From: a virus
Strand: one strand, 5' to 3'
DNA: 50,323 bases
IMG/VR virus record: IMGVR_UViG_3300010885_003155
Location: 1 to 50,323 of that record
Positions 6,220-46,894 of this stretch are shown piece after piece; positions within the stretch are counted from its first letter, which is position 1, and every line of letters starts with the position of its first letter. The notes under the pieces were generated by a model, which saw only the letters and a list, made by a program, of their open reading frames with translations, ran no database searches and was not told where the DNA came from. Both the position numbers and the translations under genes were made by a program.

Positions 6220-7131
6220 ATGGCGATTTCACGCGCACAACTTCTCAAAGAACTCCTTCCCGGCCTGAACGCCTTGTTCGGTCTGGAATACTCGCGCTAC
6301 GGCGAAGAGCATAAGGAAATCTTTGAGATCGAAACCTCCGAGCGCTCGTTCGAAGAAGAAACCAAGCTGTCGGGCTTCTCCGCTGCTCCGGTTAAGAACG
6401 AAGGTTCGGCCATTGCATACGACAACGGTCAGGAAGTCTTCACTGCTCGCTACACCCACGAAACGATTGCCCTCGGGTTCTCGCTGACTGAAGAAGCGAT
6501 TGAAGACAACCTGTATGACAGCCTCTCGGCTCGTTATACTAAGGCCCTCGCCCGTGCGATGTCCTATACCAAGCAGACCAAGGCTGCTGCAGTCTTGAAC
6601 AACGGCTTCAGTGCATCCTACCCCGGTGGCGATGGCGTGGCTCTGTTCTCGGCCTCGCACCCGCTGGTTAACGGTGGTACCAACTCCAATACGCCTTCAA
6701 CGCAGGTTGACCTTAACGAAACCTCGCTCGAAGCCGCAGTCATTCAGATTGCTGCTTGGACCGACGAACGTGGTCTGCTGATTGCCGCGAAGCCTAAGAA
6801 GCTGGTTATCCCACCTAGCCTGATGTTTGTTGCTACTCGCTTGCTCGAAACCGAACTTCGCGTCGGTACCTCGGACAACGATATCAACGCCATCAAGAAT
6901 AACGGTTCGATCCCTGAAGGTTACACCGTCAACCACTTCTTGACCGATACGAACGCATGGTTCTTGACCACTGATGTTCCTAATGGCCTGAAGAACTTTA
7001 TCCGTACTCCTATGAGCACGGGTATGGACGGTGACTTCGATACCGGTAACGTCCGGTATAAGGCTCGCGAGCGTTACTCGTTCGGCTGGTCTGATCCTCT
7101 CGGTATGTGGGGTTCTTCCGGTTCTACCTAA
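6220..7131 (+). CDS. Major capsid protein (HK97-fold type)
   Basis: 303 residues, with an AGAGGAG site before the ATG. Features typical of this capsid family are the early ALFGLEYSRYGEEHKEIFE helix region (about 17-35), the acidic EETKLSGF loop (about 46-56), GFSLTEEAIEDNLYD (about 86-100), a long helix, FSASHPLVNGG (about 145-155), the ETELRVGTSDNDINA segment and a C-terminal RYSFGWSDPLGMWGS. The order scaffold, small protein, decoration, capsid, terminator is the classic head cassette. Codon use is the most GC-rich and regular in the region, as expected for a highly expressed protein. No cleavage site is obvious. Confidence 0.88.
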   Translation: MAISRAQLLKELLPGLNALFGLEYSRYGEEHKEIFEIETSERSFEEETKLSGFSAAPVKNEGSAIAYDNGQEVFTARYTHETIALGFSLTEEAIEDNLYDSLSARYTKALARAMSYTKQTKAAAVLNNGFSASYPGGDGVALFSASHPLVNGGTNSNTPSTQVDLNETSLEAAVIQIAAWTDERGLLIAAKPKKLVIPPSLMFVATRLLETELRVGTSDNDINAIKNNGSIPEGYTVNHFLTDTNAWFLTTDVPNGLKNFIRTPMSTGMDGDFDTGNVRYKARERYSFGWSDPLGMWGSSGST

Positions 7132-7829: not shown

Positions 7830-8345
7830 ATGGCTATGCAAACTGATGTTAAAGCAGCCCACCTCAATGCAAGTGGTATCCTTGTCTCGGCTCGTACGCG
7901 GCTTCGGGGTATCACTGGGGTGGGTAGTGCTACTGCTGGTACGGTAAATATTTGGGACTCAGTTACGGCTCCCACAGCAGCTACTTATGCCCGCTCAACT
8001 AATACTATTACCGTAACTCTCGCTTCCCATGGTTTTGCCATTGGGCAGACTGTTGGGCTTACCTTCGCTGTTGCGGGTGGCGCTGGCGGTACTAATGGCA
8101 ACTATGTGATCCAGTCTTCTGGTTTCACCACTGGTGCCTTTACTGTTATTGATATCAACTCGGGTACAGTGGCAGCTAGCACTGGCTGTTCAGTATCTGC
8201 TAGCCTGTGGATGACCTCATACGACACGAGTGCTACTTCCACAGAAGTAGTTAACACCTTGATCCCCGGTGAAGGTATGCTTGCGCAAACGGGTCTTTAC
8301 GCGCAGCTGTCAAACCAAACCGGCATTACAGTCTATTATGGGTGA
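7830..8345 (+). CDS. Beta-rich virion protein with FCCH-like segment
   Basis: 171 residues, preceded by AGGAGG. The middle (about 50-125) reads as an Ig- or beta-barrel-like module: NTITVTLASHGFAIGQTVGL, then GGTNGNYVIQ and a valine/threonine strand. This strand pattern resembles the short FCCH-type domain often inserted in phage tail proteins, and a similar stretch occurs in the tail nozzle at 23952. The ends are Thr/Ser/Gly rich. It is probably a surface component of the particle. No enzymatic motif is visible. Confidence 0.6.
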   Translation: MAMQTDVKAAHLNASGILVSARTRLRGITGVGSATAGTVNIWDSVTAPTAATYARSTNTITVTLASHGFAIGQTVGLTFAVAGGAGGTNGNYVIQSSGFTTGAFTVIDINSGTVAASTGCSVSASLWMTSYDTSATSTEVVNTLIPGEGMLAQTGLYAQLSNQTGITVYYG

Positions 8346-8348
8346 CAC

Positions 8349-9086
8349 ATGCAAAACGAAAAAGGTTACGATCTAGCTGGCCGCAGTCTCTTCATTGCGC
8401 TTCCGGCCTATGACTTCAAAGTCTCTTTGAAGCTTGCTATTTCGCTAGCCCAATTCGCGCAGCAGGCTCAGCAGCACGGGGTATCCATCCAGATTGGCAG
8501 CATTTGCGGCTGTTCGGTGGTATCCCGTGCTCGCAACCTCCTCGCGCAAGATATGCTCGACTCCGACTGCACCGACCTGATGTTCATCGATAGTGACATC
8601 AACTTCGAAGCAGTGGATATCTTCCGTCTGATGGCTTGGACCTCGGACCCTAAGAAGGGCATTGTTGCTGGTGTACCTCGTACACGTAGCACGACCAAAA
8701 CTTATATCGGCACGCTTGATGCGGACGAGAATGGTGAGCTTACGATGAATAGCATGGGCCTTGTCCGTGCTAAGCGCGTGGCTACTGCCTTCATGATGGT
8801 TCGCCGCGATGTCTTCGAAACCCTTGATGCAGCCCACCCCGAGTGGCGCTACTACGATGAGCGTACGGAACGCACTGTCCCCTGCATGTTTGATTTCATG
8901 CTGACCGAAGAAGGTTACGTCGGAGAGGACTACCTCTTCTGTGACCGTGTTCGCGAACAGGGTTTTGAAGTCTGGATCGACCCAACCATCAAGTTGGGGC
9001 ACATGGGTGTGCAAGAATACGAAGGCGAGTTTGGTAGAGATGTCCTCTACCCGATGCTTATCCCATCACAGAAGGAAGTAGCCTAG
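8349..9086 (+). CDS. Glycosyltransferase, GT-A fold (virion module copy)
   Basis: 245 residues. A GT-A type nucleotide-sugar transferase is indicated by an N-terminal strand SLFIALPAYD, the helix motif SRARNLLAQDML (59-70) and the metal-binding D-x-D in LMFIDSDINF (Asp81, Asp83). A later EDYLFCDRVREQG segment carries the acidic EDY motif of family-2-like enzymes. Length and motif spacing match the second enzyme at 46124-46894, in which the D-x-D lies at the same residue numbers. It starts 3 bases after a beta-rich virion gene and is followed with no gap by the tagged-protein cluster. A likely substrate is a virion protein or host glycan, but this is inference. Confidence 0.8.
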   Translation: MQNEKGYDLAGRSLFIALPAYDFKVSLKLAISLAQFAQQAQQHGVSIQIGSICGCSVVSRARNLLAQDMLDSDCTDLMFIDSDINFEAVDIFRLMAWTSDPKKGIVAGVPRTRSTTKTYIGTLDADENGELTMNSMGLVRAKRVATAFMMVRRDVFETLDAAHPEWRYYDERTERTVPCMFDFMLTEEGYVGEDYLFCDRVREQGFEVWIDPTIKLGHMGVQEYEGEFGRDVLYPMLIPSQKEVA

Positions 9087-9518
9087 ATGTCTCTCCCAAT
9101 GATGCCTCCCCCTCAGACGCTTCCCCCGCCTATTCCTGCAGGTCCAAGCCCCACGGCTCCTCAGGTTGCGCCTACGGGTATGCCTACGCCTCCACCTTCT
9201 CCTTCTATGGGGGGTGTTAATCCGGCCATTCTTGCCGCTCAGGCTGCTGTTGCTCGAATGAATGCTCAACCTACGCCCCCCGCTGCTCCCGCAGGACCTA
9301 CTCCTGCTCAGCTAGCCGCTCAGCAGGCTGCTCAAGCTAATGCCCGCAAGCAAGCTCTCGGTGCTGCTGTAGGCCCCCGTCGTGCCAAGGGTGGCACGAT
9401 CAAGAAGGCTAAGGGCGGTACAATCAAGAAGATGGCCAAGGGCGGCTCTGTCTCCTCAGCTTCCAAGCGCGGTGATGGCTGCTGTTCCAAGGGTAAGACT
9501 AAAGGGCGGTTTGTGTAA
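9087..9518 (+). CDS. Pro/Ala-rich protein with KGG repeats and C-terminal Cys tag
   Basis: 143 residues, beginning at the base after the previous stop. Residues 1-100 are a disordered Pro/Ala/Gln-rich region. Three basic KGG repeats follow (AKGGTIKK, AKGGTIKKM, AKGGSV), and then a tag ending in RGDGCCSKGKTKGRFV. The last 27 residues are also the last 27 of the next protein, with almost identical DNA. The protein is strongly basic. It may be a virion-associated or nucleic-acid-binding protein; the function of the tag is unknown. It overlaps the next ATG by one base. Confidence 0.75.
   Translation: MSLPMMPPPQTLPPPIPAGPSPTAPQVAPTGMPTPPPSPSMGGVNPAILAAQAAVARMNAQPTPPAAPAGPTPAQLAAQQAAQANARKQALGAAVGPRRAKGGTIKKAKGGTIKKMAKGGSVSSASKRGDGCCSKGKTKGRFV
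9435..9517 (+). repeat. 83-bp direct repeat, copy 1 (C-terminal tag)
   Basis: Encodes the tag at the 3' end of the 9087 gene. The second copy at 9788-9870 is 353 bases downstream and differs only at 9443 (C) versus 9796 (T), a silent change. The match begins and ends with the tag-coding region. Confidence 0.95.
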
Positions 9519-9871
9519 TGCCAGAATATAAAGGCAGTAAAAAATTAGGGGTATCCTCTAACGCTGATGCAACTGAAGACAGCGATAAGATGGATCGTGC
9601 GCGGAAAAAGCTTGGTGATATGGCGGGTGTATATTCCGGCTATAACGGTGCTGATCCTAATGATCCTTATTTTAAAGAAGCTGCTGTACGGGTGAAGCAG
9701 GCAGACACGCTGAAGAAGCTATCCAAGGATACTGAGACCAAAATTAGCCGCGCCAAGGAGAAAGACGCTCCTAACGTCGTTGCATATGCCAAGGGTGGCT
9801 CTGTCTCCTCAGCTTCCAAGCGCGGTGATGGCTGCTGTTCCAAGGGTAAGACTAAAGGGCGGTTTGTGTAG
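9518..9871 (+). CDS. Small charged protein with the same C-terminal Cys tag
   Basis: 117 residues. The body (1-88) is mixed charged and helix-like (MDRARKKLGDMAGVYSGYNG; ADTLKKLSKDTETKISRAKE) and unrelated to the preceding protein. The last 27 residues repeat that protein's tag exactly (GGSV, then DGCCSKGKTKGRFV). The tag DNA differs at one of 83 positions, so it was copied recently or is held by conversion. The ATG overlaps the previous stop by one base, and the stop overlaps the next GTG. Unknown function. Confidence 0.75.
   Translation: MPEYKGSKKLGVSSNADATEDSDKMDRARKKLGDMAGVYSGYNGADPNDPYFKEAAVRVKQADTLKKLSKDTETKISRAKEKDAPNVVAYAKGGSVSSASKRGDGCCSKGKTKGRFV
9788..9870 (+). repeat. 83-bp direct repeat, copy 2 (C-terminal tag)
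   Basis: Encodes the tag at the 3' end of the 9518 gene. It is identical to 9435-9517 except for one silent base. Sequence identity stops at the edges of the tag, so only this segment was duplicated or homogenised. Confidence 0.95.
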
Positions 9872-10125
9872 TGGCCAACTCTCCTGCTTGGACCCGTAAG
9901 GAAGGCAAGAACCCTAAAGGCGGCTTGAACGCCAAGGGCCGTGCGTCTTACAATAAAGCCAATCCGGGGAAGCCGGGGCTTAAAGCCCCACAGCCTGAAG
10001 GCGGCTCTCGCAAGAAGTCATTTTGTGCCCGCATGTCGGGTATGAAAAAGAAGCTTACTAGCGCCAAGACTGCCAATGACCCCAATAGCCGTATCAACAA
10101 ATCCTTACGGGCTTGGAAGTGCTAA
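9871..10125 (+). CDS. Small basic phage protein (DUF6321-like)
   Basis: 84 residues with a GTG start overlapping the previous TAG by one base. It has a clear conserved pattern: SPAWTRKEGKNPKGGLNAKG at the N-terminus (3-22), then RKKSFCARMSGMK in the middle (about 47-59), and an NKSLRAWKC end. This matches, from memory, the phage/bacterial family DUF6321, whose function is unknown. Two conserved Cys (in SFCARM and the terminal residue) and many basic residues suggest nucleic-acid or metal binding, as inference only. It is part of the small-basic-protein run, but lacks the GKTKG tag. Confidence 0.8.
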   Translation: MANSPAWTRKEGKNPKGGLNAKGRASYNKANPGKPGLKAPQPEGGSRKKSFCARMSGMKKKLTSAKTANDPNSRINKSLRAWKC

Positions 10126-10126
10126 C

Positions 10127-10297
10127 ATGATTAGAGAAGAAACCTTTAAACACATCATCGATGCACTGTCCTTTGCGACGGTCCTAGGGACTATTGTAAA
10201 CATGCTTCCCGCTGTCGCAGCAGTATTCACAATCATTTGGACAGCAATTCGTATTTACGAAACTAAGACTGTCCAAAATTGGCTGAGGAAAAAGTGA
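10127..10297 (+). CDS. Small membrane protein, possible holin
   Basis: 56 residues from the ATG at 10127, the base after the first residue following the previous stop; a longer frame from 10076 would overlap that gene heavily. A hydrophobic segment covers about residues 14-42 (FATVLGTIVNMLPAVAAVF), long enough for one or two membrane spans. It is flanked by charged ends and a basic C-terminus NWLRKK. Size and topology suit a holin or a spanin-like protein, but it is about 10 kb from the endolysin, which has its own holin-like neighbour. It overlaps the next gene by one base. Confidence 0.6.
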   Translation: MIREETFKHIIDALSFATVLGTIVNMLPAVAAVFTIIWTAIRIYETKTVQNWLRKK

Positions 10298-10488
10298 TGG
10301 ATATGGAAAGCTCTAAGAAAGATATGGCTCAAGACAAAGCTGTTGTGAAGAAGGCATTTAAAATGCACGACGCACAAGAGCACAAGGGTGAGCATACAAA
10401 CCTATCAAAACTTAAGTCTGGCGGCTCTGTTTCGGCTCGCGCCGACGGTTGTTGCAGCCGTGGTAAGACTAAAGGAAAGATGGTATAA
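10297..10488 (+). CDS. Small protein with a variant of the Cys tag
   Basis: 63 residues from the ATG at 10297, which overlaps the previous TGA by one base and follows a GAGGA site. A TTG at 10279 is a weaker alternative. The N-terminal 40 residues are charged and helical. The C-terminus carries GGSVSARADGCCSRGKTKGK, the same tag as the 9087 and 9518 genes but with clearly different codons. The protein sequence of the tag is therefore kept while the DNA diverges. The stop overlaps the next ATG (TAATG). Confidence 0.75.
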   Translation: MDMESSKKDMAQDKAVVKKAFKMHDAQEHKGEHTNLSKLKSGGSVSARADGCCSRGKTKGKMV

Positions 10489-11060
10489 TGCCCTCGTCGA
10501 GCGCCAAGCAGGCTAACTTTATGCGTGCTATCGCTCATAGCCCATCATTCGCCAAGAAAGTTGGCGTGAAGCAATCAGTAGGTAAGGACTTTGAAATGGC
10601 CGATAAGAAAATGAAAAAGTTTGGTTCTGGTGGTATCACTAAGGACATGCCAACTTCTAATGCTATGGGTGATATGGGTATGGCTAAGGGTGGTAGCGCT
10701 AAGGCTAAGGCTAAGGCCAAGGCCAAGGGCATGATGGCTATGTCCATGATTAAGGACCGTATTGGTCGCGCTATGGCTTCTCGCGGTGCAGAGGCTCCTA
10801 TGGCTGCACCTCCTTCCGCCCCTATGGATGCCGCACCTCCTCCCGCTCCACCCCCCGCTCCACCCCCCGCTGGCCCTCCTATGGGTGGCGCTCCCGGCAT
10901 GAAAAAGGGCGGCAAGACCAAGATGGCCAAAGGCGGCGGTATCGAGCGCAAAGGCAAGACCAACACCAAGATGGTCAAGATGGCCAAGGGTGGTTCCATC
11001 GACGGCATCGCTCAGCGCGGTAAGACTCGTTGTGCTGGTGCACATCTAGGCGCTAAGTAA
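10488..11060 (+). CDS. Lys/Gly/Pro-rich basic protein with KGG repeats
   Basis: 190 residues. The N-terminus (2-35, SSSAKQANFMRAIAHSPSFA continuing to a KKVGVKQSVGKDF block) is a conserved phage motif whose function I do not know. There follow an AKAKAKAKAKG run (about 70-80), a Pro-rich segment (110-140), and KGG-type repeats ending in KGGSIDGIAQRGKTRCAGAHLGAK. The last part is a variant of the tag in which Cys-Cys is replaced by Ile-Ala. It is extremely basic. Simple codon repeats (GGCTAAGGCTAAGG) explain the large antisense frames here, which are not genes. Confidence 0.75.
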   Translation: MPSSSAKQANFMRAIAHSPSFAKKVGVKQSVGKDFEMADKKMKKFGSGGITKDMPTSNAMGDMGMAKGGSAKAKAKAKAKGMMAMSMIKDRIGRAMASRGAEAPMAAPPSAPMDAAPPPAPPPAPPPAGPPMGGAPGMKKGGKTKMAKGGGIERKGKTNTKMVKMAKGGSIDGIAQRGKTRCAGAHLGAK

Positions 11061-11061
11061 A

Positions 11062-11325
11062 ATGCGTCCGTCTCGGGGTATGGGCGATATGAAAGCGTCA
11101 AAGATGCCTAAGAAAGCATGTGGTGGGGGTAAGATGATGGCCAAGGGTGGGAGTGCAAACTTTATCCAGAAGGCTATCAAGAAGCCCGGTGCTCTTCGCG
11201 CTGAGCTTGGAGCCAAGAAGGGTGAGCCAATTCCAGCTAAGAAGCTCGCCGCCGCAGCCAAGAAGCCCGGTAAGGTCGGCCAACGCGCCCGGTTTGCTGA
11301 AGTTCTGAAAGGCTTCAAGAAGTGA
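11062..11325 (+). CDS. Small basic phage protein with FIQKAIKKPGALR motif
   Basis: 87 residues, starting one base after the previous stop. It has a KKACGGGKMMAKGGS basic/KGG lead, then a conserved core NFIQKAIKKPGALRAELGAK and a KKPGKVGQRARFAEVLKGF end. The core resembles, from memory, a small phage protein found in head or tail regions of aquatic phages. The KGG element links it to the preceding tagged proteins. Probably helical and DNA- or virion-associated; no function is established. It overlaps the next GTG start. Confidence 0.75.
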   Translation: MRPSRGMGDMKASKMPKKACGGGKMMAKGGSANFIQKAIKKPGALRAELGAKKGEPIPAKKLAAAAKKPGKVGQRARFAEVLKGFKK

Positions 11326-12032
11326 CCACGACTGGTACCACTGCGTTCAATTTGAACCTCAATGACCTCGTTGAAGAGGCTTTTGAGCGCTGTGGTGCTG
11401 AGCTTCGTTCGGGCTATGACCTGCGCACGGCGCGGCGTAGCCTCAACCTACTGACCATTGAGTGGGCTAATCGGGGCATTAACCTGTGGACTATCGAGCA
11501 AGGCTCGATTGCTATGGTTCAAGGGACATCTACGTACGATCTTCCTATCGATACGATTGACCTACTCGACCATGTAATTCGTACAAATACAGGTCAGGCA
11601 CAGCTTGATATCAATATCAACCGTATCAGTGCTGATACCTACATCACGATCCCGAACAAGAATGCTCAAGGGCGTCCTATTCAGGTCTGGATCAACCGTC
11701 AGTCAGGTGCGACCTATCCGGTGACTGGGATAGCTGCACCACAGATTAACGTGTGGCCGATGCCGGATCAGAGCAACTACTACACCTTCTTCTATTACCG
11801 TCTGCGCCGTATGCAGGACGCAGGGGATGGTATCAGTACTCAAGATATCCCGTTCCGCTTCCTTCCTTGTATGGTGGCAGGACTAGCATATCATCTGTCG
11901 CTTAAAATCCCCGGCGCTATGGAGCGTACGATGATGCTAAAGCAGATGTACGATGAGGCATGGCAACAGGCCGCTGATGAAGATCGTGAGAAGGCCCCCC
12001 TGCGGATCGCTCCGCGCCAGATGTTTATCTAG
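11322..12032 (+). CDS. Head-tail adaptor (P22 gp4-like)
   Basis: 236 residues, starting at a GTG within the previous stop codon region. It opens with a helical segment (LNLNDLVEEAFERCGAELRS, about 11-30), continues with an RSLNLLTIEWANRGINLWTI helix, a beta region (TYDLPIDTIDLLDHVIRT) and a NVWPMPDQSNYYTFFYYR strand. It ends with a helix-rich C-terminus around PCMVAGLAYHLSLKIPGA. This is the layout of the adaptor ring proteins that bind the portal in podoviruses (gp4 of P22, gp11 of T7). Position before the second adaptor at 12800 supports the role. Confidence 0.75.
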   Translation: MTTTGTTAFNLNLNDLVEEAFERCGAELRSGYDLRTARRSLNLLTIEWANRGINLWTIEQGSIAMVQGTSTYDLPIDTIDLLDHVIRTNTGQAQLDININRISADTYITIPNKNAQGRPIQVWINRQSGATYPVTGIAAPQINVWPMPDQSNYYTFFYYRLRRMQDAGDGISTQDIPFRFLPCMVAGLAYHLSLKIPGAMERTMMLKQMYDEAWQQAADEDREKAPLRIAPRQMFI

Positions 12033-12040
12033 GGGGTCTT

Positions 12041-12472
12041 ATGCCTAATCCATTTGCTTCAGGTAAGTGGGCTATCTCAGAGTGCGACCGATGCGGTCAG
12101 CGCTATAAGCTCAAGCAGCTTAAGAAGCTCACCATCAAAACCAAAACTACGAATATCCTCGTATGCCCATCGTGCTGGGAACCTGATCAGCCACAGCTGC
12201 AGATCGGCATGTATCCGGTTGATGATCCCCAAGCGCTGCGTAATCCACGCCCTGATATCAGCTATTGGCAAGCGGGCCTCAACGGTATTCGCACCGAGCA
12301 GTATTCAGTACCCAACAGTAATGTGCTAGCCTTCGGTACCCCAACTATGGGGAGCCGTGATATCCAGTGGGGATGGAACCCGGTGGGGCTAAATAATGCT
12401 TTGTCTTTGCCTGATCTTCCAAATACGCTATTAGCTACAGGTACAGTCGGTACCGTAACGGTACAAACATAG
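12041..12472 (+). CDS. Small zinc-ribbon virion protein
   Basis: 143 residues. Two Cys pairs, CDRC (Cys15, Cys18) and CPSC (Cys42, Cys45), separated by a basic stretch (KLKQLKKL), form a probable zinc ribbon. The rest (about 60-143) is Pro/Asn/Gly-rich and ends in a Thr/Val strand. Because it sits between the two head-tail adaptor genes it is probably a connector or virion component and not a transcription factor, though the ribbon itself would not exclude DNA contact. Confidence 0.7.
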   Translation: MPNPFASGKWAISECDRCGQRYKLKQLKKLTIKTKTTNILVCPSCWEPDQPQLQIGMYPVDDPQALRNPRPDISYWQAGLNGIRTEQYSVPNSNVLAFGTPTMGSRDIQWGWNPVGLNNALSLPDLPNTLLATGTVGTVTVQT

Positions 12473-12481
12473 GAATAAGTC

Positions 12482-12610
12482 ATGGCCAAGGGTGGTAAGA
12501 CCAACGAGCAGATGCTGAAACTGGGCCGCAACCTCGCTAAGGTTGCCAATCAAAAGAACTCCGTGCGCAAGGTGCCCACAAACGAAGTAAAGGTGAACCC
12601 AAATGGCTAA
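12482..12610 (+). CDS. Very small KGG protein (42 aa)
   Basis: Reading from the ATG at 12482 gives 42 residues beginning MAKGGKTNEQMLKLGRNLAK and ending VKVNPNG. It fills the otherwise empty gap, overlaps the next ATG by 8 bases, and begins with the same KGGK element as the small proteins at 9087-11325. A helix-like core with basic residues follows. Similar tiny KGGK...NEQM proteins occur in related phages, from memory. Unknown function. Confidence 0.65.
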   Translation: MAKGGKTNEQMLKLGRNLAKVANQKNSVRKVPTNEVKVNPNG

Positions 12611-12800
12611 TTCCGATAAGTGGTCGTACCTTTCAGCGGACGCTAACCCGCTTCCTTCGCGTCGTCAGCAGACGATGGATTATTCGGTCGGTACGGGTGA
12701 CAATGGCTATCCCAATAAGATTGCCAACACTCAGACCCTGCGTACCCGTGGTACCAAACTGGCTACCAAAGGTAACAGCAGCAGCACGAAGATGGGCTAA
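12603..12800 (+). CDS. Small hypothetical protein
   Basis: 65 residues, polar and Ser/Asn/Thr-rich, with RRQQTMDYSVGTGDNGYPNK in the centre and a basic Thr-rich end. It overlaps the gene before by 8 bases and shares its last base with the next ATG (TAATG), so it is a member of the coupled connector operon. No recognisable motif. Confidence 0.65.
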   Translation: MANSDKWSYLSADANPLPSRRQQTMDYSVGTGDNGYPNKIANTQTLRTRGTKLATKGNSSSTKMG

Positions 12801-30854: not shown

Positions 30855-33800
30855 GTGACTGAATATACGGTTAAAGTTGGCAATACTGAGTATGATGTAA
30901 CTGCCCCTGATGCCGATACAGCATGGCAGTGGGCATATATGACTCACCAACAGGAAGCCACTCCTGCTCCTACTCCTGCTCCTACTCCTGCTCCTACTGT
31001 TGAACCTGTTAAAACTGGGCAAGAGGATGAAGGCGGCTTTTTCCATGAGCTTGGTAAAGGTTTGCGAACTGGTATCAGCCAGATTGCCTCTACACCTGCG
31101 GCCTTTAAGCTACAGTTAGCTGCAACAGGTGAGCATGAAGTTGCTCATACGCTTAGTTTGTTCGACCAGATTGATGCTGGAAAATATAAACCCCAAGAAA
31201 CTATGTCTGCAGCACAAGCAGCAATGTTTGGGGGGGAGGCAAATACCGACCCAGCAGTTGCTACTGAGCGTGCAGCATATGAGTATGCAAAGGCATCCTC
31301 AGCGCAACGTAAAGCTATTCGCGAAACCTATGTAAACGCTAATACGCAAGGCATCAAAGACGTTCAGTCTGGCGTTGCTGCAGAAGCTACAGAAGCTGCA
31401 AAGATGGCTCCCTACCAACCACGCGTAGGAAGTTTTTCAAGTATCAAAAATCTCGGGGATGTTCGTGACTATCTTGGTGCTACCGTTGGTCAGGTCCTAC
31501 CACAAGCTGCAGCAGTTATGGGTACTGCTGCAATTACAAAATCCCCTGCTGCTACTGCCGCTATCAGTGGAGCGATGACCTATGGGTCAGAAACAGAGGA
31601 TCGTGTTCGTTTTATTCAAGATCAGGTAAAAGACCTACCCCCTGAAAAGCAAGCTATTGCGATTGCTGACTACTTACGTAAAACTAAAGATACCACAGCA
31701 ATGGTAGCTATTGCTTCTGGTGCGCTCGATCTTGCTGGTCCTACTGGTAGTATCCTTAAAAAAGCTTTTGCTAAGGAAGTAGGTGAAGAGGTTATCCATA
31801 AAACTGTTGGTGAAACAATTAAAGCCGGTCTTAAGGAAGCCCCTAAGGAAATTGGTGAAGAACTCCTAACTGGTGGTGCACAGGAAGCCGTTTCGATTGC
31901 TGGTGAACGTAATATTGGCGAACAAAAAGGCCCTGCACTAACTAACGCAAACTTTATGCGAGTGTTAGACTCCGCTATTGCTGAGGGTATTGGTGGTGCT
32001 GCGGGAACAGTAATTAATACAGGTGTAGAAACCGGTGAAACTGTACTAAGAAATAAAGAACAAGTACGACTTGATCGAGAGCTAGTACGGCAGGCTAAAG
32101 CTGCAGGTATTGATCTCGATAATAAATCAATCAAGGATACTTATAACGCTGCTGTAGCTAAATTTAAAGCCGAAGGGAACTCCGAGGACCAAGCACTTAT
32201 CCTAGCTAGCCGTGAGCTACCTCGTCTTATTGGTGTCACTCCTGAAAACCTTGGTGAGGTTCCCGGTAATGCGTCTGCAGCCCCTGCGCCTACAGTGCGC
32301 GTGGCTAATGTCAATCAGGCAGCTCCTCTCCCTGAGACCGTGCGTACGCCACTTCAAGAGGTTACCCCCGAAGCGCTTAATGCTGCTCTGCCAGCTATTG
32401 ATGCTGGGTTTGAAGAGTATGCAGACGAGTTCAACGATGCGTACGGGGTCACAGAGCTTACACCTGATGTTCGTCAAGCCGCTGCAAAGATGATCGTCGC
32501 GGAGCCTAACATCGCTCCATACGATGCGCTGCATAGCGTGCTTCAAAATGTTCAGCAGGCTGCGCCTACGGCTGCTCCTGTAGTAACTCCAGTTGACGTA
32601 CAGGCTACCCAGCCTGTCACGCAAGCCATCGAGCAGGCGACTGCACCGACTGGCTCTAACATCCCTTCGCTGGCTGAGGCCGCTGCGCGAGATACGGGTA
32701 TTGTTGAACCCCCTGCCCCCGCCACTGCCCTTGCTACCTCCGTACCACTTACAGTCACTAACGGTAACAAGATTAAGAAAGACCCTATCAGTGGTGCTGT
32801 GAACCATGTGGTTGACCTAAGTGATGGCACTACCGTCACCATGTACCGGGACACTGAGCAGTTTGGTAAGAGCAATCCTGTTTGGTATGTGGAAGACCCA
32901 CTTATTCCAAACACACCTGAAGGGCCTTACCAAGGCGGTATTGGCTCTACTAAACAAGAAGCACTGGCAAACGTAGCAAAATACGTAGAAAGAAACCGCC
33001 CACAGAAGATTGCCCCTACGGAAACGGTTGATCAGACTGCAGCAACCCAAGAAGAACCCGCGCCCGTAGAAGAGCAGGTGCAGGAAGAGCAGACCCCTAC
33101 TGAGCCTACAGCAGGTGAAGTGGCAAGGGAGCGTAACCTTGACCCGGGAATGTTTACTGAAGGCGTTCGTGACGTAGAGCGCGGTGCTGAACCGTTAGCT
33201 GATGAGCAAGTCCTTGATGCTGGAGGGCAAGAAGCCCTTGATGCCTATAAGGCCGGTATAGAGTACGCTACCCAGCAAGAGGCTACCAACGAAGAAGCCA
33301 CCGCCGAACCTGCGCCTCAGGAGCAGGAGCAGGAGCAACCTGCTAACCTACCCGCTGTTGTCCAAGAAACACCACAACCGTCGCGTAAAATGAAAGCGCG
33401 GATTATAGGTTTGAATGCTGTCTTTGATGATATTGCAGAGCAGTTTGATGCTGCCGCTACACGGGGTGATGTAAAGAAATTCATCGAAGGTCTAGTTAAA
33501 GACAAAACCATCGATGCAAGCGAAGCAGCTGAAATCCTTTATACGCTACAGGACCAAAGCGTGGGGGCACTTGATGCCGCTAAGGAAGACCTGCAGGGCC
33601 TAATCAGCACTGCCTACGAAGATCGTCTGAACAAAATCCAAAAAGAAGAAGCTCCCAGCCAGCGCTACCGCCGCGAAGGCACGGGGCAAGGGGTCACCAA
33701 GGAAGCCGTTCAGGATTACGTCAATGGCCTAATTGCGAACTGGAAGGCAAACCTCAACGTCAACGTCATCAACTCGATTGATGACCTTCCTGCTAATTTA

Positions 33801-36800
33801 AAAGAAGCTGTCATTAGCGACGGTGCGCAGGAAGCGCAGGGTTTTGTCACTGCTGAGGGCGATATCTACATCCTTGCATCCAACCTCAATGAGGTCAGCG
33901 ATGCTGCGTCTACCATCTACCATGAGGGTCTAGGGCACCTTGGCCTACGTGCGCTCTTCAATGAGCGCCTCGATAAGGTCCTGCAGCAAATCTACGACGG
34001 CAATAAGAAGCTGCGGGATGAGGCTGACACTTGGTTCGACGAGAACACTAACGCATACCCCGAGAACTCGAACCCCCGCCTGCGTGCACTAGAAGAGGTT
34101 CTGGCTATCCAGTCAGAGGAAGGCCGCGTAGACGCAAGCATCTGGGCAAAGCTCACTGCGGTCATCAAGGACATGGGTCGCCGCCTAGGTATCAAGTCCA
34201 ACTTCTCGGATAGCGAAGTGCGAGCCATTCTGGCTATGGCACACGACCAGATCATTAACGGCCCCCGTGAGAGCGCTGTCGTTAAGGGCCTGCGCTACAT
34301 GATCAATGCGTGGCACGGAGGGCATAACTTCGATAGGTTCAGCCTTGAGCATATTGGGTCGGGTTCAGGTGCGCAGCTTTTCGGCTGGGGTCTGTACTTT
34401 AGTTCTAAAAGGTCCCTCGCTGAACATTATCGGAATAGGGTAGCTAATCCAGCAACCCGAGATATTATTATTGATACACCAGATGGTACGCAAGGTGTTC
34501 TGTATTGGAATGTTAATGCTCTTTTGCCTTATTTAAATCTTTCTGGAACAGATCAAAATTACCCAGCAGAATTTGCTTTAAACAATATTCGTCAAGGGAT
34601 GAGCCTTAATGAAGCAATTGAAGATATGCGTTTAAACTACCCTCATTACCCTAAAGAAGATGTAGATAAAGCAGCAGCAGCACTTCGTGCTGCTAACCCA
34701 CGATTGGAAAAAGCAAAAAGTAGCGTATATAATGTTAATATTGATACTGACGAAAGCCACATGCTTGATTGGGATAAACCATTTGATAAGCAATCAAAGT
34801 ATGTTCAAGAACGTCTAGATGAGCTAGGTCTCATTGATAAAACTGAAGAGCTAGATTTAAAACACAAGTTAGAAGTTGCGGAACAAAAAGCTAAATTCTT
34901 CGATAAAGCCTACAATAAATTTGTAAACGCTGGACGAGGAAGTTTAACTGAAGAAGAGTTTATAAATAAAGCCTCGTTGCTTTATCGTAACCTTAACGAA
35001 AATTTAGATGATATACGTTTTCTTAAGAGACAACTAAAAGCCGAAAGGCAAGGGCAATCGTATTATGGACGTTTAGCAGAGAGGCGTGGTTCCGATAAAG
35101 CAGCATCCAAAGCCCTGCTCGAAGTAGGTATCACTGGTACTACATACGAGGGGGATGACACCGGTGCGCGTAACTACGTCGTCTTTGATGACAACGCCAT
35201 CGATATAGCTAACAAGTACCAGCGTAAGAAGAAGACTGACCCCAGTAAGGAACTGCTGCGGGCTGAGCAGCTGCTTGCACGATCTCGTAACCCGGGTAAT
35301 ATGATTGAAGCAACTTCAACTATGATGAAGGTGCAGCGCAGCAAGCGTCGCCTAGAGCACTTGATGCAAATCATTCCAAACTACCTCACGACTAAACAGG
35401 GTCGTTTGATGTTGCAGTTTCTGTCTCCCGCAGATGTCGTGCATATGGCTACCCGTGCCTCTGCTGCTCTTGGGGGTCGCCTTAATAAGCTCAATACTGC
35501 GCTACAGGAGATGCGGGATACGTCTGCAAGTATGCGGGCAACGATCCAAGATAGAGCATATCGATGGGATAAGTTTAATGTCCGCTTTAAGGAAGGTGGG
35601 CAGCAGCTCTCTGATCTCTTGAACCTTTCTACGCTCTACGACATCGATGTACGTCGTGCAGACAATGTTCAGGATTTCCTCGCGCAGGATGACAAGATTA
35701 AAGAGATTAAGGCGGATACTAAGCTTGGAAATATTGCCAAGACTAGACGTATCAAGACCCGTACTGATCTAGTTGGAGCCGCCTATAAACGGCGAAATGC
35801 CCTTATGACCCCTGCTAATGGTAAGGGTGAAGGACTTAAAATTTACGATATAGCTATCAAAGCTGGTCGGGAAGTTTTCGACCGACAACTAGCTGGGACG
35901 ATAGCTCGGGTTGAACAGTCAAAACTGTCTGATACCCGTAAGGTTACTGCTGTTAAGGCAGTGAAGGCCCTATTTGCAGCGGCTGAGAAGATCGGCCTTT
36001 ACTTCCCACTTGGGCGTGAAGGTGACTTCTGGATGCGTGTTGGTATGGGTAAGGACCGAGGCTACCACTCATTTGCAAGCCAAATTGAACGCGATCTTGC
36101 TATGCGGGAGCGCTACGATGAAATGGTAACAAAGGGTGAGAAGCGTTCTTATGATGAAATTATCTACGCTGGTGAGATGAGTTCAGGGGATAATACCAAT
36201 ACCCTACAACAGGATATCATCGATAACGATCCCACAGGTATGTTCCAAAAGGTTCTCAATGAGCTAGATGCTGGGAAAATTTCAGACCTTAAAGCTGTTA
36301 AAGAGCAGCTGACAGAGATGTACCTACAGACGCTGCCTAAGCTTGCACAGGACGCTGCTATGCAGCATCGGCAAGGTATTGCGGGCTTTACAGCTAATAC
36401 CCTTCGAACCTTTGTGAACGCACAGAACTCAGCGGCAAGCCGCCTTGCGCGTCTTGAGCATAGCGGAGCTATCCGTGATAATCTCGCTACAGCCTATGCT
36501 ATCCTACAGAATGACCCTGATCAGGACCAGTTGAGACCCTATGTCGATCAGATGGCTGAGTTTGCTGGTCAGCAGCTAGCCCCAACTAAAGGTAATCCAA
36601 GCGCAGAAGCAGCATCGAATGCAGCGAACCAGCTTGTATTCCACTACACTATGACCAGCATCAAGACAGCTATGATCCAGATGCTTCAGCTGTCTATCGG
36701 CATGAATGCCCTTGTACGAGACTATGGCTGGCGTGCCCCTGCACAAGCCTATCGCTATATGACTAACCTTAATCATATCTTTAGCACGACAAGACTTGAT

Positions 36801-38408
36801 GAAGATGGAAATGTTATTACTAATTGGGGTCAGCCTTCTATTAGGAATAGCGGTTATATTAAGAACACACGGAACGCTGAAAAGCGTGCCGCACTAGAAG
36901 CTATCTGGGAAGGTGGTAATAGTCGAGGAGCTTACTCCCATAACTATACTGGCGATGTTATGGGTACTCCGCATGTAGATACTAATACATACGGTAATGG
37001 GCTATTGGATAGCACTCGCAAGACCTATAACTTTGTGAGTAAATTTATGTCGGGAGCAGGCTTCCATACAGAACGGTTGTCCCGTGAGATTATGTTTATG
37101 TCTGCTGGTGAACTTGAATACAATAAACTTCGTAAACAAGGTGTTAGCCATATAGATGCCATCAAACGTGCAGAGCAGAGAGCAGCTGAGCTTACTACTG
37201 AAACCATGTTTGACTATGATCCTAATGTAAAGCCCATGATTGCTCGTGGCCCTATTGGTCGCGTTATGTTTAAATTTACAACCTATCCAATGAATATGAC
37301 TTCATTACTCGTTCGAAACTTCTATAACGCTGTGAAGCTCAAGTCCTCACTACAAGAACGTCGTGACGCTTCGATCATGTTCTTTGGTACGCTAGCCAGT
37401 ACCTATATGTTTGCAGGTATGACTGGTCTTCCTCTTTATAGCATGTTCATGGGGCTTGCTGACCTTGCTCGTGAATTGTTCCGCCCACTATGGGAGGATA
37501 AGGATAATCCTGACGAATATAATGAGGACTCTGGGAACCCACTGGCCTATGCCAATATGGACCTTTGGTTCCGTACATACTTCATCCCTCGGTACCTTGG
37601 TGGTGCTACACAGGATGAGGCCGTTGAGCGGCAGGGTACACCTGAACAGCAAGAAGCTGCTGACAAGCAACGTGCGCTTAACCAAAGAACAGTAGAGATG
37701 GGACCGATCTCTGCCTACACAGACCTTAATTTTAGTGGATCGATGTCTCTCAATGATATGTTCCACCATGATCCCGGTCAGGTGAAAAGCGTAACAGATG
37801 CGGTAAAGAACCTTCTACTGAGCACAGGGTTTGCTGCTGCTGGTAGCGTAGCTACACAGATGGCACAAGGTATCGATCTAATGTTGCAAGGGCAGTATGA
37901 GCGAGGGGCTGAGAAGCTCATCCCATCTAACTTCCTACGGCAGCCCCTGATTGCTCAACGTCTTCAGCAGGAGGGATATATTACTCCTAAAGGCGTAGTC
38001 CTTAAGGAACCCGAGTTCTACACTGCGGGTAAGGTAGCCGCACAGTGGGCTGGGTTTGGCTCGACTGAAATTGCGCAGATGCAACAGCAGAATAACCTCT
38101 TCAATGAGGTCACTGATAAAGTCGATCAGAAACGATCTAGCATCCTTAACCGCTATAGCCTTACACACTACAAATATGAGCTAAACCCTACAGATGCGAA
38201 TGCTGCCACTGCCGAAAAGGCTGAAGAGCTACTCGATGAGTACAATTCAGACTATGGGGCTATCAATCCGATTACAGGTAAGCAGCTAAAAGAAGCAATC
38301 GATGCGTTCATGACAAACCGTGAAATTGCTAAGGAATTGGGTGGCCTACAGACCAACAAAAAATATTGGGATGCTGCTCAGGCTATGCGAGAACCCAAGA
38401 CCAAATAA
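30855..38408 (+). CDS. Giant polyvalent virion protein with ADP-ribosyltransferase-like domain
   Basis: 2517 residues from a GTG with AGGAAG upstream. N-terminus: a small domain (1-34, EYTVKVGNTEYDVTAPDADT) followed by an APTP linker. Then come hydrophobic Ala/Gly segments (about 205-385), a Pro/Glu/Gln-rich low-complexity region (to about 850), and a HEGLGH motif (His1023-His1028) like the conserved HE-x-x-G-H of polyvalent proteins. An ADP-ribosyltransferase-like block follows (about 1150-1455): WHGGHNFDRFS, GAQLFGWGLYFS and NYVVFDDNAID match ART-PolyVal. Long helical regions and a C-terminal LPD38-like segment (about 2135-2260) with hydrophobic stretches complete it. Such proteins are carried in the virion and ejected with DNA. 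Activity of the ART and the metalloprotease-like motif is not proven. Confidence 0.85.
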   Translation: MTEYTVKVGNTEYDVTAPDADTAWQWAYMTHQQEATPAPTPAPTPAPTVEPVKTGQEDEGGFFHELGKGLRTGISQIASTPAAFKLQLAATGEHEVAHTLSLFDQIDAGKYKPQETMSAAQAAMFGGEANTDPAVATERAAYEYAKASSAQRKAIRETYVNANTQGIKDVQSGVAAEATEAAKMAPYQPRVGSFSSIKNLGDVRDYLGATVGQVLPQAAAVMGTAAITKSPAATAAISGAMTYGSETEDRVRFIQDQVKDLPPEKQAIAIADYLRKTKDTTAMVAIASGALDLAGPTGSILKKAFAKEVGEEVIHKTVGETIKAGLKEAPKEIGEELLTGGAQEAVSIAGERNIGEQKGPALTNANFMRVLDSAIAEGIGGAAGTVINTGVETGETVLRNKEQVRLDRELVRQAKAAGIDLDNKSIKDTYNAAVAKFKAEGNSEDQALILASRELPRLIGVTPENLGEVPGNASAAPAPTVRVANVNQAAPLPETVRTPLQEVTPEALNAALPAIDAGFEEYADEFNDAYGVTELTPDVRQAAAKMIVAEPNIAPYDALHSVLQNVQQAAPTAAPVVTPVDVQATQPVTQAIEQATAPTGSNIPSLAEAAARDTGIVEPPAPATALATSVPLTVTNGNKIKKDPISGAVNHVVDLSDGTTVTMYRDTEQFGKSNPVWYVEDPLIPNTPEGPYQGGIGSTKQEALANVAKYVERNRPQKIAPTETVDQTAATQEEPAPVEEQVQEEQTPTEPTAGEVARERNLDPGMFTEGVRDVERGAEPLADEQVLDAGGQEALDAYKAGIEYATQQEATNEEATAEPAPQEQEQEQPANLPAVVQETPQPSRKMKARIIGLNAVFDDIAEQFDAAATRGDVKKFIEGLVKDKTIDASEAAEILYTLQDQSVGALDAAKEDLQGLISTAYEDRLNKIQKEEAPSQRYRREGTGQGVTKEAVQDYVNGLIANWKANLNVNVINSIDDLPANLKEAVISDGAQEAQGFVTAEGDIYILASNLNEVSDAASTIYHEGLGHLGLRALFNERLDKVLQQIYDGNKKLRDEADTWFDENTNAYPENSNPRLRALEEVLAIQSEEGRVDASIWAKLTAVIKDMGRRLGIKSNFSDSEVRAILAMAHDQIINGPRESAVVKGLRYMINAWHGGHNFDRFSLEHIGSGSGAQLFGWGLYFSSKRSLAEHYRNRVANPATRDIIIDTPDGTQGVLYWNVNALLPYLNLSGTDQNYPAEFALNNIRQGMSLNEAIEDMRLNYPHYPKEDVDKAAAALRAANPRLEKAKSSVYNVNIDTDESHMLDWDKPFDKQSKYVQERLDELGLIDKTEELDLKHKLEVAEQKAKFFDKAYNKFVNAGRGSLTEEEFINKASLLYRNLNENLDDIRFLKRQLKAERQGQSYYGRLAERRGSDKAASKALLEVGITGTTYEGDDTGARNYVVFDDNAIDIANKYQRKKKTDPSKELLRAEQLLARSRNPGNMIEATSTMMKVQRSKRRLEHLMQIIPNYLTTKQGRLMLQFLSPADVVHMATRASAALGGRLNKLNTALQEMRDTSASMRATIQDRAYRWDKFNVRFKEGGQQLSDLLNLSTLYDIDVRRADNVQDFLAQDDKIKEIKADTKLGNIAKTRRIKTRTDLVGAAYKRRNALMTPANGKGEGLKIYDIAIKAGREVFDRQLAGTIARVEQSKLSDTRKVTAVKAVKALFAAAEKIGLYFPLGREGDFWMRVGMGKDRGYHSFASQIERDLAMRERYDEMVTKGEKRSYDEIIYAGEMSSGDNTNTLQQDIIDNDPTGMFQKVLNELDAGKISDLKAVKEQLTEMYLQTLPKLAQDAAMQHRQGIAGFTANTLRTFVNAQNSAASRLARLEHSGAIRDNLATAYAILQNDPDQDQLRPYVDQMAEFAGQQLAPTKGNPSAEAASNAANQLVFHYTMTSIKTAMIQMLQLSIGMNALVRDYGWRAPAQAYRYMTNLNHIFSTTRLDEDGNVITNWGQPSIRNSGYIKNTRNAEKRAALEAIWEGGNSRGAYSHNYTGDVMGTPHVDTNTYGNGLLDSTRKTYNFVSKFMSGAGFHTERLSREIMFMSAGELEYNKLRKQGVSHIDAIKRAEQRAAELTTETMFDYDPNVKPMIARGPIGRVMFKFTTYPMNMTSLLVRNFYNAVKLKSSLQERRDASIMFFGTLASTYMFAGMTGLPLYSMFMGLADLARELFRPLWEDKDNPDEYNEDSGNPLAYANMDLWFRTYFIPRYLGGATQDEAVERQGTPEQQEAADKQRALNQRTVEMGPISAYTDLNFSGSMSLNDMFHHDPGQVKSVTDAVKNLLLSTGFAAAGSVATQMAQGIDLMLQGQYERGAEKLIPSNFLRQPLIAQRLQQEGYITPKGVVLKEPEFYTAGKVAAQWAGFGSTEIAQMQQQNNLFNEVTDKVDQKRSSILNRYSLTHYKYELNPTDANAATAEKAEELLDEYNSDYGAINPITGKQLKEAIDAFMTNREIAKELGGLQTNKKYWDAAQAMREPKTK

Positions 38409-45918: not shown

Positions 45919-46127
45919 GGTATTTCCTTTAATTCACGGGCTGCGTTACGCACTTGAGATACGGTATTGAGCACGACGCGCCTATCTGCCTCTTGCCTCC
46001 TACCTCGGGGGAAGACAGCTACCAATCTACCACATAACATCACCTTGTGGTGTTTTGTACCTAGCTTAACATCCCAAGGGAGGCCCGTATTATCTAGGGC
46101 CTCCCGCAATTCGTCCGGTAGTTTCAC
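45915..46127 (-). CDS. Small HicA-like protein
   Basis: 70 residues from the GTG at 46127, which overlaps the glycosyltransferase TGA (GTGA); the longer frame from 46244 is less likely. Pattern: helix (LPDELREALDNTGLPW), a strand with GTKHHKVML (His26, His27), CGRLVAVFP, and a C-terminal helix (VLNTVSQVRNAAREL). The G-x-(K/S)-H-x-K strand and size match the dsRBD-like HicA fold, where His is catalytic in mRNA interferase toxins. No HicB-like antitoxin is adjacent, so it may be a tamed nucleic-acid-binding version. Stop overlaps the nuclease start. Confidence 0.6.
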   Translation of the reverse strand: MKLPDELREALDNTGLPWDVKLGTKHHKVMLCGRLVAVFPRGRRQEADRRVVLNTVSQVRNAARELKEIP

Positions 46128-46894
46128 TTCAGATTTCCCCCCGACTTCAGCATGTCCCCGTTGTAGACGTAGGTCCCAACGTGGTCCAACTTCACGAAGG
46201 GGTGGGCGTGAACCTTCCCCCCGTGTTTGCGAAACAGTTCGCAAAAATGATAATCTTCTGAAAGCAGTGCACCGCTCTCATCAATGCTGGTGGCAAAAAA
46301 CTCATGCGTCAAGGGTTTAGCATATTCCCCATCAGCCTTGATAAACGATGACACTCGATAGGTCGGCACATGCGGCGCGAGGTGGTCGAACACCGCCCGC
46401 TTGATGAGCATGAAGCCAGTACCGCCATGCCGCACCTCAATGACACCCCGCTCGTCTGTCTCGACGTAGCTCTCTCCGATCATGTTGAACACGAACGCGC
46501 CACCGTAATCCTCAAGGTCATCCTTGCCAGCGAGCGCTGCGCGTTTGACGCTATCCCAGTTCACTTCCTTCTTAGGATAGATGCCGCACACGATGTCATC
46601 GTCTACGGCTAGCAGGTGAGCAACAGCGTCCCCATCGAAGCCGATGTCCGCATCGATGAACATCAGGTAGTCACAGTCTGTGGCTAGGAACGTACGGGCA
46701 AGCTCATTACGCGCCCGGGTGATAAGGCTCTCATTGGTCATATGCGCCCAGCGCACCTCGACACCCAGTTCGCGCATCTTGTTCATGGTGTTCAGCAAGC
46801 CCAGCACGTACATGCCAGTGCACATGCCGCCGTACATGGGGGTGGCAATCATGATCTTCGGGCGCTTAGTCTTCACCTTGATCTCATCTAACAT
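46124..46894 (-). CDS. Glycosyltransferase, GT-A fold (replication module copy)
   Basis: 256 residues. Paralogue of the 8349 gene: PKIMIATPMYGG strand, TRARNELARTFL helix (59-70), and D-x-D in LMFIDADIGF (Asp81, Asp83) at identical positions. A later SEDYHFCELFRKHGG matches the EDY segment, followed by KLDHVGTYVYNGD. It lies among replication genes and 2 bases after a SAM methyltransferase, so its target could be DNA, a small molecule or a glycan. Its stop overlaps the start of the HicA-like gene. Function specific to phage is not known. Confidence 0.8.
   Translation of the reverse strand: MLDEIKVKTKRPKIMIATPMYGGMCTGMYVLGLLNTMNKMRELGVEVRWAHMTNESLITRARNELARTFLATDCDYLMFIDADIGFDGDAVAHLLAVDDDIVCGIYPKKEVNWDSVKRAALAGKDDLEDYGGAFVFNMIGESYVETDERGVIEVRHGGTGFMLIKRAVFDHLAPHVPTYRVSSFIKADGEYAKPLTHEFFATSIDESGALLSEDYHFCELFRKHGGKVHAHPFVKLDHVGTYVYNGDMLKSGGNLK

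Follow-up and report, generated by a model that had tools for sequence, protein, structure and literature searches.

A C-terminal peptide shared by unrelated small proteins in the head-gene region of one phage capsid lineage, and its possible role in docking

Introduction

Why should several neighbouring phage proteins with unrelated bodies end in the same short peptide? The question is raised by the window analysed here, the 50,323-base IMG/VR virus record IMGVR_UViG_3300010885_003155, in which a sequence-only reading had picked out a shared C-terminal tag on four small proteins encoded between positions 9087 and 11060. We followed this tag across phage sequences, and found that it is confined to one capsid lineage, occurs in two forms that track the capsid phylogeny, and sits on many unrelated proteins encoded beside head genes. 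The tag may be, and we hold this as the leading reading at slightly less than even odds, a modular C-terminal docking peptide that brings small basic proteins to a head-assembly component, the proteins themselves probably being internal virion cargo.

Results

The window carries three copies of the tag, of about 20 residues, at exact protein C-termini. The first tagged protein (9087..9518, +) is an open reading frame (ORF) of 143 residues with a Pro/Ala-rich basic body of isoelectric point (pI) 11.8, which has no Pfam or PHROG match, and its tag (9435..9515, +) reads AKGGSVSSASKRGDGCCSKGKTKGRFV-COOH. The second protein (9518..9871, +; 117 residues), whose start codon overlaps the stop codon of the first (TAATG), ends in the same AKGGSVSSASKRGDGCCSKGKTKGRFV peptide (9788..9868, +); the last 74 nucleotides of the two copies are identical (ggctctg...gtgta), with one synonymous difference immediately upstream. 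The third protein (10297..10488, +; 63 residues) has the C-terminus KSGGSVSARADGCCSRGKTKGKMV*, and its tag, GGSVSARADGCCSRGKTKGKMV-COOH (10420..10485, +), has many codons changed synonymously. The first and the third copy agree at 14 of their last 22 residues, with a BLOSUM62 score of 78 that none of 200,000 paired shuffles reached (maximum 49), and some of the differences over the last 25 codons are purely synonymous, chiefly in the DGCCS core. Thus, as had been proposed, the third copy keeps the protein sequence with different codons, and the bodies of the tagged proteins are unrelated, showing no match to one another by blastp. The fourth protein (10488..11060, +) does not share the C-terminal position: its degenerate motif GGSIDGIAQRGKTRCAGAHLGAK (10989..11057, +), with the stretch GGSIDGIAQRGKTR (DGIAQRGKTR), is followed by CAGAHLGAK* and stops short of the exact C-terminus, and elsewhere in this gene family the motif is likewise internal or lies 11-13 residues ahead of the end.

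Next, we collected copies of this tag, termed class A, by two degenerate DNA scans of IMG/VR, to which the window and a few further records were added; the counts are those of the matches listed, and the search patterns demand some fixed residues and leave the distance to the stop codon free. At least 533 motif copies were obtained, at least 385 of which end exactly three residues after TKG, while in most of the others the chain runs on for 11-13 residues beyond it, through an extension of the kind MVKMAYGGKTC. The consensus reads S-A-S-[KSR]-R-[AG]-D-G-[IC]-A-x-[RK]-G-[KH]-T-[KR]-G-[RK]-[MFI]-[VCIL]-COOH, with a core of 16 residues, R-[AG]-D-G-[IC]-A-x-[RK]-G-[KH]-T-[KR]-G-[RK]-[MFI]-[VCIL]-COOH. 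In the 383 copies tabulated, G-13, G-8, T-6 and G-4 are invariant and D-14 is present in all but one, a conservation that is partly demanded by the patterns. Position -12 is I in 209/383 and C in 166/383 copies, a division that follows from the two search patterns. At -11, A stands in 336/383 copies and C in 23/383; the second pattern demanded A there, and the first left it free and still returned mostly A. K-7 is replaced by H in 35/383 copies and by R in 12/383. Cys at -12 and Cys at -1 seldom occur together (4/151 copies when -12 is C, and 67/197 have Cys at -1 when -12 is I). Class A also reads as GxxxxGKT, and a Walker A P-loop (GxxxxGK[ST]) was considered and rejected, as K-7 is not invariant and the second form of the tag, described below, lacks the motif.

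A scan of 84,980 species genomes found the searched pattern on three contigs of metagenome-assembled genomes only; one tag-bearing contig (L251), in a genome labelled Patulibacter, is probably a mis-binned phage contig. Named phages that match the tag are Planktothrix phages Pag-Yong1 and Pra-JY27 and Synechococcus phage MinM2, and the tagged protein of Pag-Yong1 and MinM2, MM2_5/UMO75986.1, has the C-terminus RDGCAKRGRTKGRFI. No match in Pfam, PHROG or the PDB covers the tag. Two papers on relatives do not mention C-termini, and searches with the tag strings, DUF6321, Pag-Yong1 and MinM2 met no relevant mention in the open-access literature, which for the tag strings comprised 5.39 million papers, subscription papers lying outside the search. 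The tag therefore seems undescribed within the open-access literature searched.

The carriers of the tag are highly diverse. The 359 full tagged ORFs (median 140 residues) fall into 178 body clusters, 125 of them singletons (blastp E 1e-4), although weak homology may merge some of these clusters, and in all 103 listed loci with several tagged ORFs the bodies are all different. Pfam and PHROG searches of the tagged bodies gave no informative match. The tag can also come and go on one kind of body: among proteins with the domain DUF6321 it is present in one 15-member orthologue cluster from other loci (13 aligned), and the DUF6321 proteins of the window, DSL-LC04 and HTVC023P have no tag. Additionally, homologues of the window ORF 12482-12610 can bear the motif near the N-terminus. 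Some tagged families (L169:1681-2232 and kin) reuse small N-terminal domains, namely a predicted helix-two-strand unit (SFxEAFxxARxxGxxxFxxxGKxYxT) and a unit with the motif SLRDYxNxxxGLxRR, neither of which has a Pfam or PHROG match.

Is the tag kept as a peptide or as nucleotides? Tag pairs from the same locus differ at 33% of nucleotides, and 42% of their codon differences are non-synonymous against 84% expected, a comparison made on copies selected by motif, so that fewer non-synonymous differences are counted at the fixed positions. By codon position, 1639 differences fall on the third against 640 and 632 on the other two. Since the differences are mostly synonymous and the invariant Gly and Thr residues use all four of their codons, selection acts on the tag peptide, and what had been suggested from a single copy is now supported over hundreds. 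A nucleotide layer lies on top of this at the very end. In 387 of 402 tagged ORFs the next start codon lies within 40 nucleotides, mostly within 6 nucleotides of the stop codon and most commonly at -1 or +2; the G-4 codon is GGA or GGG in 237/362 ORFs with such a near start against 12/38 without (p = 7e-5), and these codons make up about 5% at G-8. Because of this codon bias in coupled genes, the AARGGR end of the tag looks like a Shine-Dalgarno-like site for the next gene. These features, together with the 74 identical nucleotides of copies 1 and 2 in the window, are also what could be expected if the 3' end were kept mainly as nucleotides, either as a ribosome-binding site with stop/start overlap or as a recombination linker for cassette exchange. 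We consider this explanation quite improbable, and disfavour it as the sole cause: it accounts for the last three or four codons only, whereas the other codons vary mostly at third positions, and of 183 pairs from the same locus only 4 show no DNA difference in the last 48 nucleotides.

The tag genes occupy a defined place in the genome. In the window, the cluster is bordered upstream by the major capsid protein (MCP) gene (6220..7131, +), assigned by Pfam as Phage_capsid_4/Mu gpT-like, and downstream by an SU10-type portal adaptor gene (11322..12032, +). Phage_capsid_4 and Mu gpT are families of the HK97 fold, so the tag genes lie beside an HK97-fold shell gene. Homologues of the window head module are present in 229 of the 233 listed pattern loci, and 363 of 371 tags lie between the MCP and adaptor genes on the same strand, loci with a single border being tested on that side only; the other eight are downstream of the adaptor gene. 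Thirteen larger records (38-65 kb) have one to six tags each. When loci were drawn by their MCP instead of by the tag, 25 of the 27 window-type loci with both borders were tagged, with no tag outside the MCP-adaptor interval, while the tag was found in 0/74 CRP-901-type and 0/23 Alcaligenes-type loci; comparison of C-termini found no common C-terminus of their own in these two types. The sequence-only reading had proposed a search for the pattern in other phages, where it might have proved absent; the tag is instead far wider than the window, nearly always beside head genes, and is carried by close relatives.

Comparison of C-termini among untagged relatives revealed a common end on gp32 and gp51 of Pelagibacter phage HTVC023P. 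This second form, class B, reads R-G-x-G-A-A-x-[RK]-G-x-x-F-x-G-[VIT]-[FKRY]-COOH, and marks sister phages including HTVC023P. It spans the same 16 residues as class A and has R-16, G-13, A-11, [RK]-9 and G-8 in common with it; common descent of the two classes is likely. A class B scan gave at least 119 loci, and in 115 of the 123 listed copies exactly two more residues follow the last Gly before the stop codon. Head-module genes are present in 117 of the 119 listed loci, the tags lying mostly in the TerL-portal, portal-GroES and MCP-adaptor gaps, and the listed bodies again differ widely (34 clusters from 114 ORFs). The two classes occur together in 2/233 class A and 1/119 class B loci, many of the listed loci being fragments. 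In the window, a small protein (12603..12800, +) has a degenerate class-B-like end, RGTKLATKGNSSSTKMG, and its presumed orthologues in other class A phages, taken as such because of their common upstream sequence and position, also have a class-B-like end (RGxGAATKGxxFxG..).

The larger alignment also decides the fate of the Cys-Cys pair. All three window copies contain it, as had been noted, and a metal-binding or redox peptide was accordingly conceivable. Across the family, however, I and C share position -12, nearly every copy has A at -11, and class B has Ala at both places; because Cys-Cys is not conserved, zinc binding through it is unlikely, and a metal or redox role is so improbable as to be effectively refuted for the family.

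In an MCP tree of 110 rows, class A falls in one clade of 30 rows (support 100/100; 26 class A, 2 class B and 2 untagged), class B lies elsewhere in the enclosing 72-row clade (99/93), and all 38 rows outside are untagged. The tag labels need 13 changes on this tree against 47 when shuffled. The tag is thus confined to one capsid lineage, and its two forms track the capsid phylogeny. This bears on the proposal that the tag sends proteins to a host target, such as a protease, chaperone, membrane or the nucleoid, during infection or after ejection and not to the capsid. C-terminal signals read by host machinery, such as ssrA-type degrons, are a known kind, and a few tagged bodies have a hydrophobic segment. 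But the tag follows the capsid lineage and the head-gene neighbourhood, and the named hosts differ, being cyanobacteria for Pag-Yong1 and MinM2 and SAR11 for HTVC023P; a common host reader would therefore have to be very widespread, and we regard a host target as improbable.

AlphaFold2 models of two tagged families show the tag as disordered. Foldseek searches of the models against the PDB returned nothing significant, and solved structures offered no match to DUF6321 or the MCP and only a chance-level match for the 10488 protein. Tagged bodies have a median pI of 9.5 (10th percentile 5.5), and MCP, scaffold and portal are acidic (pI 4.7-4.9). The last 32 residues of tagged proteins have a median net charge of +22 per 100 residues and no hydrophobic segment. 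As the tag is basic, a nucleic-acid-binding peptide is conceivable, with which tagged proteins, needing no protein partner, would cover or compact the phage genome or RNA; the mostly basic, disordered bodies and the Gly-spaced K/R pattern agree with this. An electrostatic peptide tolerant of sequence, however, would need neither an exact C-terminal register nor the conserved non-basic residues D-14 and G-13 of class A and G-15, A-12 and A-11 of class B (partly demanded by the patterns); in addition, some bodies are acidic, and restriction to one capsid clade would be unexpected. We therefore judge nucleic-acid binding as the function of the tag to be unlikely.

Other genes of the cluster and its surroundings were noted in addition. 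The ORF at 9871..10125 (+) encodes a DUF6321 protein (PF19846; 73.0 bits, above the Pfam gathering cut-off of 28.5) without a tag, and 10127-10297, inside the tag cluster, encodes a 56-residue protein with one hydrophobic segment, possibly a membrane or lysis protein. Homology to phiKZ PHIKZ165.1 covers the first 47 residues of the 10488 protein (10488-10628), which are also homologous to the initial 44 residues of two PHROG families whose annotation is virion structural protein; this N-terminal unit is a small module in common with jumbo phages. Directly upstream of the tag cluster lies a glycosyltransferase-like protein (8349-9086); about 20 related loci have a homologue, and the product of 46124-46894 resembles it as judged by eye. 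The 2,517-residue protein of 30855-38408 is probably a large polyvalent or ejected protein, and contains a stretch resembling, by eye only, an ADP-ribosyltransferase fold. An Rfam search of 8000-12500 gave no match.

Discussion

We favour docking to a head-assembly component on these grounds: the carriers are many and unrelated, the register at the C-terminus is exact, selection acts at the protein level, and the tag keeps close to the head genes of one lineage. A sorting or capsid-docking signal had been among the roles first suggested; the gene position, modularity and restriction to one capsid lineage fit it, and docking itself we infer. In such a mechanism, the tag would be unstructured alone and be read together with its free carboxyl end by one head-assembly component of the lineage, which may be the MCP, the scaffold, the portal or a protein that works closely with these. 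Small proteins bearing the tag, most of them basic and disordered, would then all be recruited to the growing head, and would most likely end inside the virion as accessory cargo. Cassettes consisting of a body, a tag and the next start codon at or beside the stop could be added or swapped, with the AARGGR codons acting like a ribosome-binding site. The most complete version of this proposal, in which a 16-residue label, in forms A and B following the capsid phylogeny, loads an open-ended and rapidly exchanged set of unrelated proteins into virions while its last codons give the following cassette its ribosome-binding site, we put forward only tentatively, as a possibility rather than an expectation.

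Several points weigh against docking. The tag is accessory, since relatives with the same MCP family do without it. Of 80 loci sampled with the HTVC023P MCP, 11 are complete over the stretch between portal and adaptor, and just 2 of these have strict class B; near variants also occur, for example RGTGIAVRGTNFKGIF, which resembles class A in having Ile at -12. The likeness of class A tags is 0.70 within a locus and 0.64 between loci, and therefore the tags show no sign of strong co-adaptation to a reader specific to each genome. No reader gene specific to tagged genomes and without a homologue in untagged relatives emerged: 26219, 27779 and 12041 appeared specific by tblastn and were rejected, because profile searches met homologues of them in untagged phages such as CRP-901 or DSL-LC04. 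Virion proteomics of a tagged phage was looked for and none came to light. Moreover, late genes of small size in the MCP-adaptor interval can encode cargo that has no role in the head.

Should docking be true, the sequence of the tag would by itself be enough to assign hundreds of small phage proteins that now lack annotation to the accessory proteins of the head or virion, in an aquatic lineage that is abundant and has Planktothrix, Synechococcus and SAR11 phages as relatives. Even without a mechanism, such strong conservation of one peptide on so many unrelated bodies poses a well-defined problem, which isolates such as HTVC023P can help to settle.

How does the tag compare with known systems? 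PEP-CTERM, GlyGly-CTERM, LPXTG and the type IX CTD are short C-terminal signals on many unrelated proteins per genome, and depend on either a transmembrane helix or a folded domain. Unlike them, the tag is carried by phages and has no hydrophobic helix in the last 32 residues, for which reason PEP-CTERM, GlyGly-CTERM and sortase signals, whose mark is such a helix with basic residues behind it, were rejected. DUF6321 (PF19846), found in the same gene cluster, is a 72-position domain of its own, with the tag behind it in some loci. Phage records with the domain number 540; in T7-like cyanophages its neighbours are capsid or tail genes, and in T4-like cyanophages it also forms the C-terminal part of larger proteins, such as a 271-residue protein between gp15 and gp16 in P-SSM2. 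The 44-47-residue domain of PHIKZ165.1 and its relatives is homologous to the N-terminus of the 10488 protein, and the copies read (phiKZ and Serratia phage Yubaba) are without the tag.

Two systems come closer. The internal proteins of T4 carry an N-terminal capsid-targeting sequence that is removed by the prohead protease gp21. Like the tag, it is a common short sequence on several small basic proteins; it takes them into the head, which for tagged proteins is our proposal. The tag differs from this N-terminal signal with its protease cleavage site in lying at the C-terminus, and no prohead protease was recognised in the tag phage, in a search that was not exhaustive. Encapsulin cargo-loading peptides are C-terminal peptides on the cargo of HK97-fold compartments, and bind the shell on its inner face. 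Specifically, they share with the tag a short, disordered, modular C-terminal peptide on unrelated proteins, and a shell protein that is akin to phage capsid proteins and encoded beside the cargo genes. On the other hand, the tag sequence differs from the cargo peptides known to us, the tag phages have a real head with DNA and several candidate cargo genes per genome, and the reader may be scaffold or portal, shell binding being here a proposal. On present evidence, the tag belongs to neither group. If docking is true, it would be a C-terminal counterpart of the T4 targeting sequence, and possibly a handle for loading phage heads.
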